Assembly: GCA_951799405.1 (NCBI GenBank)
Contig: OX637339.1
Span: 2,294,001 to 2,358,000 of the forward strand
DNA: 64,000 nucleotides
Reading direction: 5' to 3'
From: Agapetus fuscipes
Taxonomy: Eukaryota > Arthropoda > Insecta > Trichoptera > Glossosomatidae
Each line of letters begins with the position of its first letter. Within the stretch, counting starts at the first letter, position 1. Below, in pieces: positions 19,286-50,790 of this stretch. The position numbers and the translations under genes are program-made. The notes beneath the pieces are model-generated. The model saw only the letters and a list, made by a program, of their open reading frames with translations, was not told the DNA's origin and did no database searches.

Positions 19286-19853
19286 AACCGCTTTGTAATA
19301 AATTCCCAAACCCACCTTTCGTAGAACAACTTCAGTTTATTAGATTCCTGATGGAAAACTTTTTTAATTCCTTGAAGCCTCTAGTTTATTATTCGAGGAG
19401 GTTGAAGTTAACACTTTGTATTTCACGGAATATCAAATTTAATAGCACGCTTTGTTACAGCAATTTACATCTGTTTCATTTTAAAGTATTCAAATGAAAT
19501 TGAATACAAAAAAAACTTTTTTCATTTTTCCTTGTGAGTCACCTGTTGCTAAGTTTTTGTTTAACTAAGGGTGCCCAGAGCCACTACAAGTTACACCTTC
19601 TGTAAGAGAATGAGAGAGGAAAACCGAGCGGTGTAGATGTATACATTTCTGAAATAGCGAACGAATGGGATATCCACACCCGTCCGTCTATCGTAACTAA
19701 GCTGCACATAAACCGCGAAATACCCGTCAGGGAGGCTTTCCCGTCAGGCACATTAGCTTCAGTAACATACCGGTCCGTAGTTCAGTGGTAGCACATCGGA
19801 CTGTGAATTGGAAGGTTGTGGGTTTGATTCCCGGTGGAGCAAAAAAAATATAC

Positions 19854-20370
19854 TGTTATGTAAATATAAATATTGAAATAAGTATGGGTAGTTATAGTGT
19901 TATGTAAATATAAATATTGAAATAAGTATGGATAGTTATAGTTATAAGAATCCTCAAAAGTATTGGTAGGTAAGATCGATAATTATGTATAAGTGTAGAA
20001 TTCTCTAGGCTAAGTAGGTATTTGTTATAATTATAGGAATACTGTGTTACATTTGTAGGTAGGATTTTGGTTGTATCTCTAGGTAGTACGTGAAGCGTCG
20101 AGAAGTAATAATTACTCTGGAACCGTCTGGCGACTTTAGTTCTGGATCATACTGCTCTGAAGAGTATAAAGGTGCGAATGGCCTGCAGAGCGGGGCAGTA
20201 TCATAGCGACTAACAAACACATCGAAGCCATCTGATCAGTGAACCGAAACCAATGGAATAATCGAGAAAGTAGTGTGAAAATAAATTTTGTAACTGTGTA
20301 AAATAAATAACTATTGAAGAAGACCTGTGTATTTTTAATTTGAAGACAATTGAACCCTAATTTCGTAACA
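19854..20370 (+). repeat. Element A 5' LTR
   Basis: Starts TGTTATG and ends CGTAACA. The first 44 bp are duplicated in tandem (units at 19854 and 19898, one mismatch). A TATAAA lies at 20165-20170, and AATAAA-type signals occur near 20280-20305. Confidence 0.95.
20165..20170 (+). promoter_or_regulatory. Probable TATA box of element A LTR
   Basis: TATAAA inside GAAGAGTATAAAGGTGCG, about 205 bp before the LTR end, a plausible distance for a U3/R border roughly 25-30 bp downstream. The same box lies in the 3' LTR at 26925-26930. Confidence 0.6.
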
Positions 20371-21034: not shown

Positions 21035-22396
21035 ATGGCAACCAAAGTGAACATCAAGGACCTCAAAGTCACTGAGCTTAAAAATGAGCTTCTGGAGAGG
21101 GACCTGGAGACCTCAGGAGGGAAGGCGGCCTTACAGGCACGCCTCATGGAGGCCTTAGAACAGTCAGGCGAAGACCCGGCATATTTTGTCATGGCGTCTG
21201 GAGGGGACCGCGCCTTGGACGAGCTAAACCTCAGCATCACCGGAAACTTCACTTCCATGGAGGAAAAGCTGAAGACTGAGATGGCTGACAACGCCAAGAC
21301 CGTGAAGGAGGACCTGACCGGGCTGGAGGAGAAGATGGCTGACAACGCCAAGACCCTGAAGGAGGACCTGACCGGGCTGGAGGAGAAGATGACCACCAAC
21401 CTGAAGGAAGTGGTGACCGACCTGAAGGTGGAAATGGCTGACAACGCCAGGAATCTGGAGGAAAAGGTGTCCCGAAATCTCACAACCCTGAAAGGAGAAA
21501 TGGAAGAGAAGATGACAGCCCTGAAGGGGGAAATGGAGACTCGTATATCAAGCCTGGAGGACCGTCTGCGTGCCGAGCTGGCTGACAAGTGCCAGATGGA
21601 GTCCACCAGAATATCCCCCAAAGACGGCCTTCACGACGAGACCGACCAGGGATGCTCAACTCCAACCAGGGTCACTAGAGGGGATGACGACCCTTCGCTG
21701 TCGAAGCACAACCTTCCGACCTTCGACGGGAAGACGTCGTGGGAGGAGTATTTGACCCTCTTTGAGACGGCTGCCATGATGGGAGCCTGGAGCCAGCAGA
21801 AGAAGGCTTCGGTTCTCAGCCTGTCGCTCCGAGGAGACGCTCTCAGGGTTCTGCAGGCCATACCCCTGGACAACCGTGGTGACTTTGGGCAGCTGAAGCA
21901 GCGCTTGGATATGCGCTATGGCCACAAGTGCCTGGAGCAGCTGTACAAGTCGCAGCTGAACACAAGGGTGCAGAAGCCCAACGAGAGCCTCCAGGAGTTT
22001 GAAATGGACATCGCCCGCCTGGTACGAGACGCTTACCCGACAGCCTCCGACGACATCTGTGAGAGCTTGGCAGTGGACAAGTTCCTAAATGGATTGCGGG
22101 AATGGGAGACGCAACAAGCCGTAAAACTGGCCCATCCCAAGGCTTTGAACGAGGCGCTCAGCCAAGCTCTCGAGTTTGAGGCTGTCAAACAGTCCATCAG
22201 GGGCCACGCCAGGGTTCGTGCAGTCGAGGCAGAGGAGGTCAAGCTACCTACAACCGAGGAGCTAATTGAAAAAGTGCTGGAACGTCTGAGACCTCGAAGA
22301 CGAGACCCACGCTGCTGGAACTGCGGACAGCTGGGCCACCTTAGCACCAAGTGTCCCAAGCCTCAGAAACCCAGAAAACAGGCTGCGGAAAACTAG
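21035..22396 (+). CDS. gag: Element A Gag with N-terminal SAP-like motif
   Basis: A 453-residue structural protein that would form the particle and bind element RNA. Residues about 5-43 (ending TSGGKAALQARLMEAL) fit a SAP motif, the helix-turn-helix-like DNA-binding fold of SAF-A/PIAS-type proteins; this is unusual in gag. Residues about 65-187 are a predicted coiled coil with an 18-residue tandem repeat (MADNAKT... at 83 and 101, partial at 134). Residues about 227-398 (from LPTFDG) look like a Ty3/gypsy gag capsid domain with an LQEF-type motif. A CCHC knuckle follows: C427, C430, H435, C440. The start ATG lies in an AAAAATGG context after the long leader. The last 52 nt overlap pol in the -1 frame. 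Much more GC-rich than the surrounding DNA. Confidence 0.92.
   Translation: MATKVNIKDLKVTELKNELLERDLETSGGKAALQARLMEALEQSGEDPAYFVMASGGDRALDELNLSITGNFTSMEEKLKTEMADNAKTVKEDLTGLEEKMADNAKTLKEDLTGLEEKMTTNLKEVVTDLKVEMADNARNLEEKVSRNLTTLKGEMEEKMTALKGEMETRISSLEDRLRAELADKCQMESTRISPKDGLHDETDQGCSTPTRVTRGDDDPSLSKHNLPTFDGKTSWEEYLTLFETAAMMGAWSQQKKASVLSLSLRGDALRVLQAIPLDNRGDFGQLKQRLDMRYGHKCLEQLYKSQLNTRVQKPNESLQEFEMDIARLVRDAYPTASDDICESLAVDKFLNGLREWETQQAVKLAHPKALNEALSQALEFEAVKQSIRGHARVRAVEAEEVKLPTTEELIEKVLERLRPRRRDPRCWNCGQLGHLSTKCPKPQKPRKQAAEN
22345..22396 (+). promoter_or_regulatory. Gag-pol overlap, presumed -1 frameshift region
   Basis: The pol frame opens after a TAG at 22342-22344 and gag stops at 22394-22396; pol has no ATG in the overlap. 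GGAAAAC at 22387-22393 directly before the gag stop is the most likely slip site, although it does not fully match the XXXYYYZ rule. Confidence 0.5.
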
Positions 22397-25300
22397 AAAG
22401 GGTTAATGGGAAGGGGCAACCGTTGACCCACGCTGGAGAGGCCCTGAAATCTGCTGCTACTGTCGCAACCGTGAGAGGAAAAGCCAGCAGCATTTTTATC
22501 AATGGCATAATAGATGGAGTAACTCGTGAACTACTGGTGGACACGGGAGCAACCAGGACAATTCTGAGACGCGACATAGTGGCACGAGGTAAGCAGATTG
22601 CACCAACAAAGTGGTCTCTGCACACCGCCACGGGAGAGTCAGCACAGGTGTATGGGGAGACGATTGCCACCTTCCAAATTGGCAGCACCACTTTTGATCA
22701 TCGGACGTTGGTGGCCAACATTGAAGAAGACGTTATATTGGGAATGGACATACTGGACAGATTTGGGTGCAGTTTAAATTTAAAGAAAGGGTCCATTAAA
22801 ATTGGAAATGAAGAAGTCATCCTGCAAAGACGGAAAGAACTGGCTGCACGTGTTATCCTAGCCAAGAATACCGAAGTGAAGGGGCGATCCGAGATGATAG
22901 TGAGTGCCCGCCTGGATTCCAGTAGTACAAATGACCAAATCTGTATGATAGAACCGGAGAACATGGACAATGTTAACAAAGGAGTCATGGTGGCAAGAAC
23001 AGTGATTCGCGCAAAGGAGACCATTCCTGTCAAGATCATGAATGTGAACAGCTACCCAGTTAAAATGAATGAAGGTTTTGTTTTGGGCAGATGTGAGAGG
23101 ATAACTTCCATTGTGCAACAGATGACAAACATGTCATGCGAAGGAAACAAATTGTCAACACAATTGGAAGCCCTGGTCCACGACGCTTCCCAAGGTCTAA
23201 CCGAGGAAAACAAACGGAGAGTGAGGAGTTTGATCTGCCGCTACCAGAACATTTTCGAGGACTCTAATGGCCGTCTGGGAAGAACCAAGGTAGTGCGACA
23301 TAGCATAGACACCGGAGAAGCGAGACCAATAAAACAGGCTCCAAGAAGACTACCCTTTGCAAAGCGGGAAGAAGCTGACAAGATCATCAAAGACATGAGC
23401 AAGGATGGCATCATAGAACCATCAAGTAGCCCTTGGACATCCCCGGTGGTACTGGTGAAAAAGAAGGATGGTACCACGAGATTTTGTGTGGACTACAGAC
23501 TGCTCAACGATGTTACGAAAAAGGATAGTTACCCTCTGCCAAGGATTGACGACACCTTGGACACATTGGCAGGATGCACCATTTTTTCCACATTGGACCT
23601 GAAAAGTGGCTACTGGCAAGTTGAATTGGATGCCAAAGATAAGGAGAAAACTGCATTCTCGACTGGATCTGGACTTTGGCAGTTCACCGTGATGCCATTT
23701 GGCTTATGCAATGCCCCCGCCACGTTTGAAAGGCTGATGGAGAATGTGCTGCGAGGACTGTCATGGGAAACCTGCCTGGTATACTTGGATGACATAATCA
23801 TCCTGGGAAAGGACTTCAACCATCAGTTGAGAAATCTGGAGCAAGTTTTCGGGCGACTACAAGACGCTGGACTGAAGCTCAACCCGAAAAAGTGTAACCT
23901 GTTCAAGAAACAAGTAAATTACCTGGGACACATAGTTTCTCAACGTGGAGTTGAAGTTGACCCTGCCAAAATCAAGGCAGTAAGAGACTGGCCCGTGCTG
24001 AAGGACAAACATGAAACTAGGAGTTTCCTGGGGCTGTGCACTTATTACAGGAGGTTTGTGCCAAGATTTGCGGACATTGCAAAACCGCTCACCAAGCTTA
24101 CGGAAGAAAACACTCGCTTCCATTGGAGTGATTCCTGCGCACAAGCATTTGAAGAGCTTAAGGGAAGATTAACAAGTGCCCCCATCTTAAGCTACCCACG
24201 AAAAGATGGAAAGTTCATCCTGGATACCGACGCTAGTAATGTGGGGATAGGAGGCGTCCTTTCCCAAATACAGGATGGGCATGAGACTGTTCTGGGTTAC
24301 TTCAGTAAAGTGCTTTCCAAGCCAGAACGAAATTATTGCGTGACCAGACGAGAGCTTCTTGCCGTGATAAAATCAGTGGAACACTTCCGCAAATACTTGT
24401 ACGGGAGAAAATTCACACTACGGACTGATCATGCTGCACTGGTTTGGCTTCTGAAATTCAAAAACCCAGAAGGGCAAGTGGCTAGATGGATTGAAAGGCT
24501 CCAGGAGTATGATTATGACTCCGAACATAGACCTGGCACGCTTCATCGAAATGCGGATGCATTATCCAGACGACCATGCGCCAGTGACTGCAAACATTGC
24601 AGCAAGATGGAGGACAAGGTAGCAATTGTCCAAAGGACGACCACCGAAGATGAGGACTGGCAAGATGAAAAATTGGCGCAAGACCAACTGAATGATCCGG
24701 ACTTGAAGTATGTGATGGAATGGGCGCGAGAAGGAGAAAGGCCAACCTGGGAAAAACTCGCCCCCTTATCACCAACTGTCAAGGCTTATTGGGCTCAATG
24801 GGGATCCATAGTGATAGAAGGAGGGTTTCTGAAACGAAAGATCGAGAAGGAAGACGGCACACTTAGAAGAAAGCAAACCCTCGTTCCGAGGAGCCGAGTA
24901 CCGGAAATCCTTGGACTGCTGCATGGAGGAACTTCTGGAGGACATCTAGGCGTTAAGAAGACGCTGGAGAAAGTGAAAGAGCGATTTTACTGGATCAACT
25001 GCAGCGAAGACGTCAAAGATTGGTGTCGAAAATGTGTAACCTGTGCAACGGCCAATGGACCGCAAAGGAAAAGGCGAGCACCAATGCGTCAGTACAATGT
25101 TGGCAGCCCCTTTGAAAGAATTGCCATCGACATAGCTGGCCCATTTCCTACAACTGAGAAGGGTAACAAGTACATCATGGTGGTGATGGATTACTTCAGC
25201 AAGTGGGTGGAAGCTTACTCAATCCCTAACCAAGAGGCCGTAACCGTGACTGAAGTTCTAGTTACCGAATTTATCAGCAGATTTGGCGTACCCCTGGAAT

Positions 25301-26613
25301 TACATTCTGATCAGGGAAGGAACTTTGAAGCTGCTATCTTCCAGCAAATGTGTGAGCGGCTAGGGATCTACAAGACCAGGACCACTGCGCTACATCCACA
25401 GTCTGATGGAATGGTGGAAAGGATGAACCGTACCGTGGGGAGGTACTTAGCCAAAGTAGTGTCCAGCCATCAGCGGGACTGGGACCGACATCTGCCTTTG
25501 TTCTTATTGGCTTACCGGTCGGCTGTTCAGGAAACGACGAAGAAGACTCCCAGCAGCATACTGTTTGGGCGAGAAATGCGACTTCCTTGTGATCTCAAAT
25601 TTGGCTGCAAACCAGGTGAAGACCTAGCCGGAGAAGACTATGTGACAGACCTTCGCAGGAGGCTGGATGACATCCATGATCAGGTCCGCATGAACATCGG
25701 GGAAGCCAGCGATCAAATGAAGGAGCGCTATGACACCAGAGCTGACAGCATGGGGTACAAAGCTGGTGACTGGGTGTGGCTTTTTGACCCCAAGAGGCGC
25801 CAAGGATACTGTCCGAAACTTCAGCGTTCCTGGGACGGGCCGTACGAGATCTTGGAGCGCATCAACGATGTGGTCTACCGCATAAAAAAGAGACCAAACG
25901 GAAAACCAAGGGTCGTGCACTACAATCGCCTCTCACCATACCTAGGCGATAATGATGACCAACCAGCCCAAAAAGTACGACAGTGCGTCGCATCCGAAAG
26001 ATCACCAGCCTTTGAGACGTTTTGGGAGAACGCGAAGGCAGGGCAGAAGTTTCGCCATGGAGTGACCACAGAAGTCCACAAGGACTTATTTGAGGTCACT
26101 AGGGACCACACGCTGGCATGCAGTGTACCGGAAGATCTAGATATGTCTAGAGGGATTGCACGGGTCTTCCGATACAAATTCGGAGAACCGCAACCCTCGA
26201 GCAGCCCGCAAGGAAGAGCTCTGAGACTACCGAAGGGGCGTCAACAAGCATACTGCCTGATTGTCCCGGATTCCAGCAACCTGGAAGAGGACTACAAGGC
26301 ATTGTGGGACGGCCTTGTTGAGCTGCGTGACTACATGTTGGAGGATCAGCAGGCGCGTCTGGCAATACCGAAGATGGGTGGCGGCCGCGCTAATCGAGAC
26401 TGGCGGATAATCCGGAGTATGATTGAAGCAGTGTTCTCGGGAGTCGGCATCAGCGTCATGGTGTGCTGCGAGCAAGCGCAGCCGAGAGCCAGTGGGGAGA
26501 AATCCGTGGACTGCCACTTCTTCCTGACCACAGGGTGTCGACGTGGATCAGCATGCCCCTACCTACACAGAGTCAAGACTGTTCCGGGACGAAACAGTCT
26601 AGGTGGGGGGTAG
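22345..26613 (+). CDS. pol: Element A Pol with C-terminal macrodomain and CCCH zinc finger
   Basis: Residue numbers count from the GTG codon at 22351 (1420 residues). Protease DTG at 64-66; reverse transcriptase with YLDD at 478-481; RNase H acidic residues D627, E668, D693; integrase zinc site H858/H866/C895/C898 and catalytic D927, D987, E1023 (D-35-E); a GPY module at 1163-1165. About 70 residues later the chain continues into a region (about 1238-1375) that by eye matches a TARG1/OARD1-type ADP-ribose macrodomain: KDLF (1244-1247), SVPEDLDMSRGIA (1258-1270), FRYKFG, an IP.MGGG loop (1339-1345) and W1351. Positions equivalent to the TARG1 catalytic Lys and Asp appear to be Pro/Asp (1306-1307) and Ala (1347), suggesting binding rather than hydrolysis. 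A C-X7-C-X5-C-X3-H zinc finger follows (C1388, C1396, C1402, H1406). The stop codon ends at the base before the 3' LTR. Core functions are certain; the macrodomain is strong by motif but unverified. Confidence 0.93.
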   Translation, partial: HQVSQASETQKTGCGKLERVNGKGQPLTHAGEALKSAATVATVRGKASSIFINGIIDGVTRELLVDTGATRTILRRDIVARGKQIAPTKWSLHTATGESAQVYGETIATFQIGSTTFDHRTLVANIEEDVILGMDILDRFGCSLNLKKGSIKIGNEEVILQRRKELAARVILAKNTEVKGRSEMIVSARLDSSSTNDQICMIEPENMDNVNKGVMVARTVIRAKETIPVKIMNVNSYPVKMNEGFVLGRCERITSIVQQMTNMSCEGNKLSTQLEALVHDASQGLTEENKRRVRSLICRYQNIFEDSNGRLGRTKVVRHSIDTGEARPIKQAPRRLPFAKREEADKIIKDMSKDGIIEPSSSPWTSPVVLVKKKDGTTRFCVDYRLLNDVTKKDSYPLPRIDDTLDTLAGCTIFSTLDLKSGYWQVELDAKDKEKTAFSTGSGLWQFTVMPFGLCNAPATFERLMENVLRGLSWETCLVYLDDIIILGKDFNHQLRNLEQVFGRLQDAGLKLNPKKCNLFKKQVNYLGHIVSQRGVEVDPAKIKAVRDWPVLKDKHETRSFLGLCTYYRRFVPRFADIAKPLTKLTEENTRFHWSDSCAQAFEELKGRLTSAPILSYPRKDGKFILDTDASNVGIGGVLSQIQDGHETVLGYFSKVLSKPERNYCVTRRELLAVIKSVEHFRKYLYGRKFTLRTDHAALVWLLKFKNPEGQVARWIERLQEYDYDSEHRPGTLHRNADALSRRPCASDCKHCSKMEDKVAIVQRTTTEDEDWQDEKLAQDQLNDPDLKYVMEWAREGERPTWEKLAPLSPTVKAYWAQWGSIVIEGGFLKRKIEKEDGTLRRKQTLVPRSRVPEILGLLHGGTSGGHLGVKKTLEKVKERFYWINCSEDVKDWCRKCVTCATANGPQRKRRAPMRQYNVGSPFERIAIDIAGPFPTTEKGNKYIMVVMDYFSKWVEAYSIPNQEAVTVTEVLVTEFISRFGVPLELHSDQGRNFEAAIFQQMCERLGIYKTRTTALHPQSDGMVERMNRTVGRYLAKVVSSHQRDWDRHLPLFLLAYRSAVQETTKKTPSSILFGREMRLPCDLKFGCKPGEDLAGEDYVTDLRRRLDDIHDQVRMNIGEASDQMKERYDTRADSMGYKAGDWVWLFDPKRRQGYCPKLQRSWDGPYEILERINDVVYRIKKRPNGKPRVVHYNRLSPYLGDNDDQPAQKVRQCVASERSPAFETFWENAKAGQKFRHGVTTEVHKDLFEVTRDHTLACSVPEDLDMSRGIARVFRYKFGEPQPSSSPQGRALRLPKGRQQAYCLIVPDSSNLEEDYKALWDGLVELRDYMLEDQQARLAIPKMGGGRANRDWRIIRSMIEAVFSGVGISVMVCCEQAQPRASGEKSVDCHFFLTTGCRRGSACPYLHRVKTVPGRNSLGGG
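26601..26613 (+). other. Element A polypurine tract
   Basis: AGGTGGGGGGTAG directly precedes the 3' LTR and also encodes the last pol codons (Gly-Gly-Gly-stop), so primer site and coding end overlap. Confidence 0.75.
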
Positions 26614-27130
26614 TGTTATGTAAATATAAATATTGAAATAAGTATGGGTAGTTATAGTGTTATGTAAATATAAATATTGAAATAAGTATGGATAGTTATA
26701 GTTATAAGAATCCTCAAAAGTATTGGTAGGTAAGATCGATAATTATGTATAAGTGTAGAATTCTCTAGGCTAAGTAGGTATTTGTTATAATTATAGGAAT
26801 ACTGTGTTACATTTGTAGGTAGGATTTTGGTTGTATCTCTAGGTAGTACGTGAAGCGTCGAGAAGTAATAATTACTCTGGAACCGTCTGGCGACTTTAGT
26901 TCTGGATCATACTGCTCTGAAGAGTATAAAGGTGCGAATGGCCTGCAGAGCGGGGCAGTATCATAGCGACTAACAAACACATCGAAGCCATCTGATCAGT
27001 GAACCGAAACCAATGGAATAATCGAGAAAGAAGTGTGAAAATAAATTTTGTAACTGTGTAAAATAAATAACTATTGAAGAAGACCTGTGTATTTTTAATT
27101 TGAAGACAATTGAACCCTAATTTCGTAACA
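26614..27130 (+). repeat. Element A 3' LTR
   Basis: 517 bp, identical to the 5' LTR except A at 27031 (T in the 5' LTR at 20271). It contains the same duplicated 44-bp start. Confidence 0.95.
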
Positions 27131-27472
27131 ATACCATTTATATTTTCAAATTTGCTCTTCGCTGGGTTGAAAAATTCATAAAACCTTTACCAATGACCGG
27201 TCACCAAAGGTCCATCCAGCCTTACAGCAACTGGATTTTTCTTGAGAAATGGCGCTTTCTACAGCGACAAACAAGCTCGCAGAGGGCTCTTGAAGTGTGA
27301 TACACATAAAAATAGCGTTAAACAAATAAATTATCCTAATATTTTTATTACATGGGGCCACGGTCCTTATCAAGCAATAACAAAGTATTAGTTTACCCTT
27401 TCCATAGCAACCCGGCAGAGTGACGACACAATTTTCTCTAAATCAATACGTGTGCGGACCTCATTAATATTG

Positions 27473-46923: not shown

Positions 46924-47376
46924 AGAAGAACCATATAAAACGGGATAAAAAAAATTTTTTTGGAAGAAATAAAATAATATTGTTGCAAGAGCAACATGTG
47001 GGAATCTTCGAGAAGGAAGAAGGATCTGAAGACTGAGGATCACGAAGCCAGCTGAGGCGAGGTTGCTGCAGGGAGAACTGGAAGAAGTCTGAAGAGAAGG
47101 AGCGGTTTTCTTCAAGAGGAAGAGAACTCACGGAGCCAAGAGGAATCGCTGCAGGGAGTTACTGCAGCGGTTTTTTTTTCAAGAGGAGAGGATCCAACTG
47201 GGGCGGAGTGCTGCAGGGAGTACTGCAGGAGCTGGGAGCCTTGAGGGTCGGTTTCCTGGAGGTGACTGCTGCAGGGAGTGGAAGCCACTTTCTGAGGGTC
47301 ACGTAGGCGTTTCCTGGACTGTCGGACGCAGAAGCAGATAAGATTTTTGTTTTCTTTCTTTCTGCCGTTTCAGACT
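46924..47376 (+). other. Element B leader
   Basis: Purine-rich leader of about 450 bp with repeated CTGCAGGGAG and TTCAAGAGGA words and no long frame. Confidence 0.75.
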
Positions 47377-50300
47377 ATGGAGGGAACACGGAGGAGTCTA
47401 AGTCCTTTTTGCCATAGGACTGGAGATTGGGATGTCTTCAGACTTCGGCTCGACCAAGTCCTCATTTTGTATGATGAGAAGTTTTTAACTGAAGAACGCA
47501 GAAGGGCTGTTCTATTATCGTCTCTCACCAAGGAGACTTTTCAGACGGTGTCTGATCTATGTTTTCCGAAAAAGATTTCGGAGGCAAAATTCGAGGAGTT
47601 GATTGATATTATTGGGGGTCATTGTGGGGTAAAAAAAAATATATTTGAGTATAGGGAGTCATTTTATTCATGTAAACAGCTCGAAACCGAGTCAATTAAG
47701 GATTATATAGCTAGATTGAAAAAAATTGCGGTAGACTGTAAATTTGAGGATAGATTGGAGGCAAATTTGAAGGATATATTTTTAATAGGTATCAGACAGA
47801 ACAAAATAAAGCAGAGAATATTTTTAAAAGCAACGGAATTGAAATTATCTGAATGTGTAGAATTAGCGAGAACAATGGAACATTTGTGTGGTCAAAACAA
47901 TTCAGAAAGTATAAATTTAATGAGTTCGTGTAATTCGAGGGATTCCACAGAAACTCGGAAGTCAAGGGATAGACAGCGAAATTCTGAAATCAAGCGAAAT
48001 AATTCAAATGATAGTAAGAAATCTATTTTTAGACATGCAAGTATTTCAAGTGATAGGAATAATAATTATAAATGCTTTAACTGTGGTAAATTCGGTCATA
48101 AACAAAATGCATGCAAGTTTTTAAATAAAAATAATAATAATATTAAATGCTTTAAATGTAACAAATCTGGTCATTATGCAAATAAATGCAAGTTTCGAAG
48201 AATAAATACAATAATGGCCATTAATGAGATGGATGGTCCCATTTTTTTAAACGTAAAGGTAAATGATACAGATCTAAAAATGATTTTAGATACGGGTTCT
48301 GGGGTGACTATTATTCCTTGGCACATATTTAATGTACATTTTTCAAATATTAAGTTAGAACATTGTGATTTGAAATTATCAAGCTATGATGGTACTCAAC
48401 TACAAGTAAAAGGTCGTAAGTACATGAGAGTAGAATATCAAGGAAGTAAAGAGTACATAGAAATAATTGTTGTATATAAAGGGTCGTCTTCTTTATTAGG
48501 TCGGAATTTTTTGAATACTTTTAAAATAAATTCATTCAATGTTAGCGATAATATTTATTCAGTAGGAAATAATAATACGAATTATAATGCAGATTTTTTT
48601 TCTAGTATGAGAAAAAAATATCCAGCTGTTTTTGAGAGTAAAGCAGGTACTTTTAAAAATTTTGAAGCGGAGATAGAAGTTATAAAAGACTTTAAGGCAA
48701 AATTTGTTAACCCGAGGCCAATTCCTTTTAATTTGAGAATAAGGGTAGAAAAAGAAATAGATCGCATGTTACAAGAAGGTATTATTGAGAAAGTAGAGAC
48801 TAGTGAAATGGCAAGTCCAATAGTGATTGTGAAAAAAAAAAATGATGAAATCAGAATATGTGCCGATTTTAAAAATACTTTGAATCCAATGTTAAAAAAA
48901 ATAAAGTACCCGTTACCTAGAGTAGAAGATTTAATAAATAGAGTAAATGGAGCAAAATTTTATGCAAAATTAGATTTGAGAAATGCTTTTTCTCAAATTA
49001 GGTTGTCGGAGGAGTCGAGAAATCTTTGTGTGATTTCGTCACCATTTGGGTTATTTAGGTACAAGGTACTTCCTTTTGGTCTCACGACGTCACCAGCGAT
49101 ATTTAGCAGAGCTTTATATTCGGCAATTCAAGGGTTGGATGCGATAGCATTTATGGATGATTTGTTAATTTATGGGAATACATTGCAAGAATTGGAGAAG
49201 GCAACGGAAGAGGTAATTAAGCGTTTAGAACGTAGTGGATTTAGTGTTAATTTACAAAAATGTGAATTTGGGTTGACAGAAGTTGAATATTTGGGATTTC
49301 AAATATCGAGGGATGGTGTGAAACCACTTCAACATAAAGTTGTTCCGTCAAAGGATAATAAAGCAGATTTTTTGTCGAGGTTACCAATGAGTAGTACGGA
49401 TAATGAGGGGGAAGATAATATTGAGATCATAAATGAGATAAACATTGAGGATGTTGAAGGAGAATTTTTAAACTGTATTGCAGTAGAAACAAATTTAAAT
49501 GTAGAATGCATCAAGGAAGCATCTCGTAATGACAAGGTCATTTGTGAGATAAAGGAGTATTTGAAAACAGGGTGGCCAAATAAATCCAAAATGACAAATG
49601 GATTGGTAAAATGGTGGTTTTTAAGAGAAAAGTTAAGCGAATCAAATGATTGTTTATTTTATGAAAACAGATTGGTAATACCATTGGCATTAAGGGAAGA
49701 TATTTTGAAGTTTATTCACAAATCTCACATGGGAATTGTAAAAACGAAAACTTTGGCTAGAAATTATTTTTTTTGGTTAGGGATGAATACAGAAATTGAG
49801 AAAACAGTGAGAGAATGTACACAATGTGCAAGAAATATGGGATCTCCAGATAAAGTCGAGTTGAAAAGTTGGCCGGTAGAACAACATATTTGGAAAAGGA
49901 TACATTTAGATTTTTTCGGGCCGCTAGCAGGAAAATATTTTTTAGTCGTAGTAGACGCAGCATCAAATTGGATAGATGCTGTAAAAGTTGATAAAATTGA
50001 TGCAAGGCATACAATTAGAGAGTTGAAGAGAATATTTTCAGTGTTAGGTATTCCAAGTTGCATTGTAACGGATAATGGGACGGCATTTACATCAGTAGAT
50101 TTTCAAAGGTTTTGCAAAAATTTAAATATTAAGCATTTAACTTCAGCAGTAAATCACCCAGCGTCAAACGGTTTGGCGGAGAATACGGTAAAAACAACAA
50201 AAAGTTTTTTAAAAAAAATTATGAAAAATGGTATGTTTCCTAACGATTATGAAGATAAGCTTTTGGAATTTTTAGTAGATCATAGAAATGCACCATCATT

Positions 50301-50790
50301 AGCAACAGGGATGGAGCCGAGCGTGCTTATGATAGGTAGAAAAATAAGATCCATTTTTGATACAGTAGTGCCTGGGGAGAAATCATTTAAAAAGACGGGG
50401 AGAAAGGTATGTGTTTTTAAAAAGAGAAATCAGGAAAATCAACAAAGGAATTACAGGGGAAGAAAGATTAAAGGACTATTCAGAATTGGACAAAAGGTAA
50501 TGACTAAGGATTTCAGAAATGTAGGGAAGTGGGTTCCATGCATTATATTTAAAACATTGGGAAACAGGATTTACTTGGTAAAAGCTGGAAATCAGATTTG
50601 GAAAAGACATCATGATCAGATTTCCGGAAGAAGGGTGTCTTGGGAGGATGAGTCTGACAATGACCTGGGGTTGGGTCAGCTGTTGGATGAGGCAGGACAG
50701 ATCTCTAATGACTCGGGTGTTTCCAGGTTCCAACCATGGTCGGAGCGCCTGCGTCCGAGGGGGGAGAACCGCCTGCGGTACCCAAGATGA
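47377..50790 (+). CDS. gag-pol: Element B Gag-Pol fusion with RNase H deleted
   Basis: The first ATG is at 47377, giving 1137 residues; the frame opens 30 nt earlier without ATG. Gag part (about 1-225) has a capsid-like region; two CCHC knuckles follow (C233/C236/H241/C246 and C258/C261/H266/C271). Protease DTGS at 305-308. Reverse transcriptase runs about 440-645 with FMDD at 592-595 and YLGFQISRDGVKP. At residues about 653-656 the chain jumps from GVKPLQHKV to VPSKDNKADFLSR; the latter is the usual end of RNase H, so the RT connection and nearly all RNase H (some 230-260 residues) are missing in frame. Integrase is complete: H781/H784 and C814/C817 zinc site, D845, D899, E935. A single fused frame needs no frameshift. 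Presumably unable to finish reverse transcription alone. Confidence 0.93.
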   Translation: MEGTRRSLSPFCHRTGDWDVFRLRLDQVLILYDEKFLTEERRRAVLLSSLTKETFQTVSDLCFPKKISEAKFEELIDIIGGHCGVKKNIFEYRESFYSCKQLETESIKDYIARLKKIAVDCKFEDRLEANLKDIFLIGIRQNKIKQRIFLKATELKLSECVELARTMEHLCGQNNSESINLMSSCNSRDSTETRKSRDRQRNSEIKRNNSNDSKKSIFRHASISSDRNNNYKCFNCGKFGHKQNACKFLNKNNNNIKCFKCNKSGHYANKCKFRRINTIMAINEMDGPIFLNVKVNDTDLKMILDTGSGVTIIPWHIFNVHFSNIKLEHCDLKLSSYDGTQLQVKGRKYMRVEYQGSKEYIEIIVVYKGSSSLLGRNFLNTFKINSFNVSDNIYSVGNNNTNYNADFFSSMRKKYPAVFESKAGTFKNFEAEIEVIKDFKAKFVNPRPIPFNLRIRVEKEIDRMLQEGIIEKVETSEMASPIVIVKKKNDEIRICADFKNTLNPMLKKIKYPLPRVEDLINRVNGAKFYAKLDLRNAFSQIRLSEESRNLCVISSPFGLFRYKVLPFGLTTSPAIFSRALYSAIQGLDAIAFMDDLLIYGNTLQELEKATEEVIKRLERSGFSVNLQKCEFGLTEVEYLGFQISRDGVKPLQHKVVPSKDNKADFLSRLPMSSTDNEGEDNIEIINEINIEDVEGEFLNCIAVETNLNVECIKEASRNDKVICEIKEYLKTGWPNKSKMTNGLVKWWFLREKLSESNDCLFYENRLVIPLALREDILKFIHKSHMGIVKTKTLARNYFFWLGMNTEIEKTVRECTQCARNMGSPDKVELKSWPVEQHIWKRIHLDFFGPLAGKYFLVVVDAASNWIDAVKVDKIDARHTIRELKRIFSVLGIPSCIVTDNGTAFTSVDFQRFCKNLNIKHLTSAVNHPASNGLAENTVKTTKSFLKKIMKNGMFPNDYEDKLLEFLVDHRNAPSLATGMEPSVLMIGRKIRSIFDTVVPGEKSFKKTGRKVCVFKKRNQENQQRNYRGRKIKGLFRIGQKVMTKDFRNVGKWVPCIIFKTLGNRIYLVKAGNQIWKRHHDQISGRRVSWEDESDNDLGLGQLLDEAGQISNDSGVSRFQPWSERLRPRGENRLRYPR

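Follow-up and report, generated by a model that had tools for sequence, protein, structure and literature searches.

A Ty3/gypsy retrotransposon in the genome of the trichopteran Agapetus fuscipes carries, at the C-terminus of its Pol protein, a macrodomain of the TARG1 class (ALC1-like). The element lies in the 64,000-nucleotide stretch of DNA analysed here, referred to as the window (GCA_951799405.1, contig OX637339.1, positions 2,294,001 to 2,358,000 of the forward strand). The explanation that best accounts for the whole, with a probability of about 0.58, is that one gypsy lineage captured a TARG1-class domain, which would act as an eraser of ADP-ribose in most of its members and as a binder in the branch to which the window element belongs.

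A TARG1-class macrodomain at the end of a gypsy Pol

The initial annotation had proposed, from the sequence of the window, that a macrodomain of the TARG1/OARD1 type is fused to the C-terminus of a gypsy Pol, and both the fusion and the type are borne out by homology to OARD1, by profile and by fold comparison. The tail of the window Pol is homologous to human OARD1 over the whole domain (E 2.7e-11), and a profile of this tail and 28 relatives matches OARD1 at E 2.1e-41. Structure prediction and fold search, which had been suggested as checks, give the tail a predicted macro fold to which TARG1 is the closest. DarG ranks behind TARG1 in the profile and structure comparisons, and its NCBIfam model matches the tail weakly, far below the cut-off. 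Chance similarity to a macrodomain is ruled out by the OARD1 homology, the pattern of OARD1 matches across relatives and the profile match, although one profile match used in this argument came from a profile that includes the window row. A search with Pfam Macro and OARD1 had also been suggested; the OARD1 part succeeded but the Pfam Macro model has no match on the window copy. Of five relatives scanned with this model, one scores at its cut-off; by reading of the lists, the model is absent from the precomputed domain lists of all 120 listed relatives. Pfam thus overlooks the macrodomain in this gypsy Pol lineage.

Among viral structures the tail is matched best by the model of Kadipiro virus VP8 (BFVD A0A8E0KJF2, E 4.8e-10), a comparison of models which suggests that this RNA virus also carries a TARG1-like domain.

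The element itself has long terminal repeats (LTRs), a target site duplication, a gag gene and the Ty3/gypsy order of protease, reverse transcriptase, RNase H and integrase in Pol. Its features are as follows (ORF, open reading frame; aa, amino acids).

19850..19853, + strand: left copy of the target site duplication ATAC (4 bp)
19854..20370, + strand: 5' LTR of 517 bp with TG...CA ends, from comparison with the 3' LTR
21035..22396, + strand: gag ORF of 453 aa, with a SAP domain at the N-terminus, Retrotrans_gag and a CCHC knuckle (Pfam)
22351..26613, + strand: pol ORF of 1420 aa by mechanical start, overlapping gag in another frame (Pfam and alignment)
24883..25056, + strand: integrase H2C2 zinc domain (PF17921, E 2e-18)
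25108..25383, + strand: integrase catalytic core (rve, E 1e-15)
25837..25938, + strand: integrase C-terminal domain (PF22938, E 7.2e-13), which we take to be the GPY/F region
26047..26472, + strand: TARG1/OARD1-type macrodomain, with the equivalents of K84 and D125 replaced by P and A (alignment, profile and structure comparison)
26500..26568, + strand: CCCH zinc finger (PF00642)
26614..27130, + strand: 3' LTR of 517 bp, from comparison with the 5' LTR
27131..27134, + strand: right copy of the target site duplication ATAC (4 bp)

Pol thus runs from aspartic protease, reverse transcriptase and RNase H through H2C2, integrase core and integrase C-terminal domain into a tail of about 200 residues that holds the macrodomain and the CCCH finger. 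The pol stop codon abuts the 3' LTR, which leaves no space for env between them. No chromodomain is found among Pfam matches for the Pol tail at E<=1. The finger fits C-x7-9-C-x5-C-x3-H with profile support, PF00642 (cut-off 20.5) giving a score of 24.9 bits if the last 42 residues are scanned and of 19.6 for a longer piece; the structure model is weaker around it, with pLDDT values of 68-82 per ten residues between residues 151 and 190. The SAP domain that starts gag (21053-21160, PF02037, E 2.9e-8) likewise appears in the precomputed annotation of the relative P0072. An A-rich stretch adjoins the element (19790-19850), preceded by a sequence that resembles, by eye, a tRNA-type B box, and this flank is perhaps the end of a short interspersed element. 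The window also holds a distant gypsy-type Gag-Pol ORF (47347-50790, 1147 aa) with a zinc knuckle, reverse transcriptase and integrase, in which there is no macrodomain match.

Descent, source and abundance of the tail

The protein search reported 1640 proteins, 120 of which were listed, and counts of relatives refer to those listed. Human OARD1 matches 33 of 121 proteins at E<=0.01, namely 32 of the 120 listed relatives and the fragment P0002, and none of the other 88. These matches and the near-identical genomic copies rule out a domain peculiar to the window copy. P0064 and P0094, which have long unrelated C-termini, were set aside by hand and the OARD1 search agreed; P0002 and seven listed rows have no anchor motif. 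An organism is named for 11 of the 32 tail relatives, nine being beetles (Callosobruchus, Molorchus, Harmonia, Diabrotica, Aromia) and two being filed as the mildew Erysiphe pulchra, entries which may be contamination.

In an integrase tree of 110 rows, built by a quick method, a single clade of 32 rows (SH-aLRT 100) holds all 29 usable tail rows, that is, the window and the 28 of 32 relatives with an integrase piece of at least 400 aa (the piece is too short in P0025, P0031, P0032 and P0034). The tail label needs four changes on this tree, such as a single gain with three subsequent losses. Macrodomain and integrase distances are correlated (Mantel r 0.60, n=25; none of 2000 permutations reached this value). 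The simplest reading of these trees and distances is a single capture whose product was then inherited, with a few losses along the way. Protein searches with the tail alone returned P0002, which is 98% identical, or nothing, a method that misses relatives, so that absence means little here. Viral contigs scanned with the tail, with the integrase and with P0025 yielded no relative, and a genome contig search found none. Matches in viral contigs to a profile of A2, a subfamily of the element described below, included no retroelement motif, just two free-standing macrodomains. These proteins, L009 (IMGVR_UViG_3300033149_001257) and L010 (IMGVR_UViG_3300018429_000011), are 39% and 29% identical to the query; no reverse-transcriptase motif lies beside L009 and one loose match lies beside L010.

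A search of the host genome with human OARD1, in which 150 of 995 candidates were scored, found exons of a host-like spliced TARG1 gene in three near copies, L011-L013 (G000:C31:352918, C52:33000 and C31:266644), with both catalytic residues. In L013 the first exon is visible upstream and an intron lies inside the domain, whereas the macrodomain of the pol tail has no intron, which argues for capture at the RNA level. An ancestor of one gypsy lineage, now mainly found in beetles, would then have taken the macrodomain, probably from cellular RNA, and retained it behind the integrase at the Pol C-terminus, often together with a CCCH finger of the RNA-binding type.

The window element is very young and of high copy number, its youth being indicated by LTRs that differ at 1 of 517 sites and by stop-free tails. 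Scoring in the 618-Mb genome covered the best 150 of 1397 candidates, including the window copy, and all are 99-100% identical over the tail. None of these 150 best-scoring copies has a stop in the tail, a sample in which decayed copies are not represented, and by our own count 110 of them have an open frame of 1422 aa. Broken copies with stops are also present in the genome.

Catalytic residues, selection and function

The initial annotation had noted that the catalytic Lys and Asp of TARG1 are replaced, and had suggested a reader of ADP-ribose. The replacement holds for the window copy, which lacks both TARG1-type hydrolase residues (K84 is P and D125 is A), but not for the family. In an alignment of 34 tail rows (the window, P0002 and 32 others), the K84 site has K in 28, R in three, P in two and a gap in one, and the D125 site has D in 27, A in two, N in two, E in one and a gap in two. 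Both residues are kept in 26 of the 32 rows readable at both sites, and in 26 of 30 if the window and P0002 are excluded. The Asp of the GDLF-type motif, D20, is present in 34 of 34 rows, and W129 in all 31 readable rows. Since the dyad is kept across most of the family, the ancestral module was probably an eraser, and a reader module throughout the family is weakened. The reader suggestion could apply at most to the window lineage, where it gains support from purifying selection that persists after loss of the dyad. The CCCH finger, the probable single capture and the second gypsy lineage with a TARG1 domain go beyond what that annotation had noted.

Ten genomic loci were compared, five of window type (used for omega, the ratio of nonsynonymous to synonymous rates) and five of subfamily A2 (L023 and others), which has R and A at the K84 and D125 sites and keeps the finger. 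Between the window copy and the five dyad-less copies of its type, omega for the macrodomain is 0.15-0.24 at a synonymous divergence (dS) of 0.09-0.86. Between window type and A2 it is 0.21 for the macrodomain with dS saturated, and 0.05 for integrase; several of the within-genome pairs have near-saturated dS. Two of the five A2 loci have a stop in frame. In a further window-type subfamily, L048 (G000:C31:8255950-8256800), the macrodomain part has diverged (73% identity, dS 0.86) whereas the zinc region differs far less from that of the window (dS 0.13; omega 0.36, from eight changes), so subfamilies may recombine.

PARP2 was reportedly found by Miyoshi et al., in 2019 (cited in PMC12859917), to be involved in LINE-1 integration. 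The dyad-keeping tails, judged from their residues, most likely erase host PARP-type ADP-ribose on element RNA, complementary DNA (cDNA), Pol or proteins at the integration site, which might be their advantage to the element. In the window lineage the dyad is lost and the fold, Asp20 and strong purifying selection are kept, a combination most likely to mark an ADP-ribose binder; such a tail would tether the integrase/cDNA complex to ADP-ribosylated chromatin or nucleic acid, or shield the mark. According to a passage of PMC7050489, TARG1 removes ADP-ribose from acidic residues (protein esters) and from nucleic acid ends, and the same review suggests that RNA ADP-ribosylation may help to recognise transposon-derived or viral RNA. 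Uracil ADP-ribosylation is described, in part of PMC13036486, as reversed by human TARG1 and by Drosophila Targ1 and Targ3.

The macrodomain could instead have been a targeting reader from the start, tethering integrase to ADP-ribosylated chromatin in the manner of a chromodomain, with catalysis incidental. Its place directly behind the integrase C-terminal domain fits this idea, as do the abundance and conservation of the dyad-less lineage, but a pure binder would have no need of the dyad, which 26 of the 30 readable relatives retain, and the idea is unlikely. A role for macrodomain and finger as an RNA-binding or packaging module, with no link to ADP-ribose, is very unlikely: a CCCH motif is found in 22 of the 34 tail rows, but a subclade without the finger (P0009, P0014, P0018, P0022, P0024 and P0026, support 83) retains both macrodomain and dyad. 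The other finger-less rows, which with members of this subclade make up the remaining 12, include truncated ones.

Several points weigh against capture of an eraser that became a binder in the window branch. Three members of the clade, P0028, P0029 and P0033, have no tail (P0029 seems, by eye, to keep finger-like residues after the deletion), and these together with the 12 finger-less rows indicate that macrodomain and finger are each dispensable. A passage of PMC9411070 describes SCO6735 as a hydrolase without both residues, so their absence is no proof of a reader. Since the dyad-less window lineage is very abundant, catalysis appears unneeded for success. Copies from one genome are non-independent samples, and among A2 copies pN/pS is 0.24 for the macrodomain and 0.81 for the integrase piece, on few changes and with much noise. 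The macrodomain stem of the window is 1.26 against 0.37 for P0003 in the first macrodomain tree (built without P0023, P0027, P0030 and P0037; the second also lacks P0010); with A2 added the stems are 0.87 against 0.52, and those of integrase 0.27 against 0.20. This faster evolution of the macrodomain than of the integrase also fits partial relaxation. Ratios of macrodomain to integrase distance are 1.81 (window), 1.77 (P0010), 1.61 (P0017) and 1.67 (P0019) in the rows of this comparison that lost one or both dyad residues, and 1.28-1.67 in all others, the 1.67 being that of P0003, with its dyad intact. The faster rate in the window lineage, the loss of both catalytic residues, the few tail-less relatives and the broken genomic copies could likewise be expected of a passenger, captured by chance, tolerated and now decaying in that lineage. 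This is quite improbable, as the omega of 0.15-0.24 after the loss already disfavours decay, the 150 best-scoring copies of the 1397 have no stop and the tail is present across most of the clade.

A second gypsy lineage, known systems and significance

The genome search with human OARD1 also yielded at least nine loci, L014-L022 (G000: C21, C6, C143 twice, C14, C147, C12, C30 and C1), that encode another Pol of gypsy type, in which a TARG1 domain lies internally, and the frame continues into integrase in eight of the nine. Pfam matches on L014 and L020 place integrase H2C2 and core after the domain, which in L014 is preceded by RNase H; neither has a Pfam macro match. The domain matches OARD1 (E 1.5e-20 for L020), keeps K and D, has a predicted fold like that of TARG1 (Foldseek E 1.3e-13, TMt 0.88) and shows omega of 0.10-0.14 at dS of 1.2-1.6. 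One examined copy of this family has a gag-like ORF and, downstream, an env of the Baculo_F type (L042:138-1475, E 2e-43); a comparison of two flanking pieces revealed no LTRs for this family. With its gag-like ORF and env, the family is errantivirus-like. Its integrase is distant from that of the window lineage, with a path of about 5.5 in a tree whose bootstrap is not settled, and the macrodomain tree joins tail and internal domains (96/84) against three outside rows, the internal branch being 2.22 long. The position of the domain and the integrase distance make two captures plausible, but the macrodomain tree does not show them. It is a tentative extension that TARG1-type erasers were captured more than once by unrelated insect gypsy-type elements, and hence that there is an ADP-ribose defence on retroelement RNA, cDNA or integration complexes which these elements counter.

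Chromoviruses carry a chromodomain at the C-terminus of integrase. Like them, the window element has an extra, possibly chromatin-reading domain after the integrase C-terminal domain, but of another fold and ligand, and with no chromodomain match in its Pol tail. The family shares with TARG1/OARD1/C6orf130, an ALC1-like hydrolase, whole-domain homology, fold and, in most readable relatives, Lys84 and Asp125; it differs in the fusion to a gypsy Pol, the CCCH finger that follows and, in the window copy, the absence of both catalytic residues. The DarG macrodomain and SCO6735 belong to the same ALC1-like class, according to passages of PMC7050489 and PMC9411070, and SCO6735 lacks the dyad as the window copy does; both are bacterial, however, and DarG retains the Lys, as part of PMC9411070 has it. 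Literature searches confined to an open-licence library turned up no account of a gypsy Pol that carries a TARG1 macrodomain. Fish retroviruses are a precedent for capture of a macro domain by a reverse-transcribing element, epsilon-like endogenous retroviruses carrying macro-domain ORFs (Basta et al. 2009, as cited in a passage of the review PMC4977317); these differ in their vertebrate hosts and in having the domain as additional ORFs.

The finding connects LTR retrotransposons with ADP-ribosylation, over which viruses and their hosts are known to contend. With a family that is apparently old and mostly dyad-keeping, and within it a young, very abundant branch that retains the domain without the dyad, eraser and binder can be compared in a natural setting. 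Taken together, the lineage with the tail and that with the internal domain make ADP-ribosylation of retroelement nucleic acid or integration complexes in insects a testable proposition, and suggest that some mobile elements may carry a tool against the ADP-ribose marks of their hosts.
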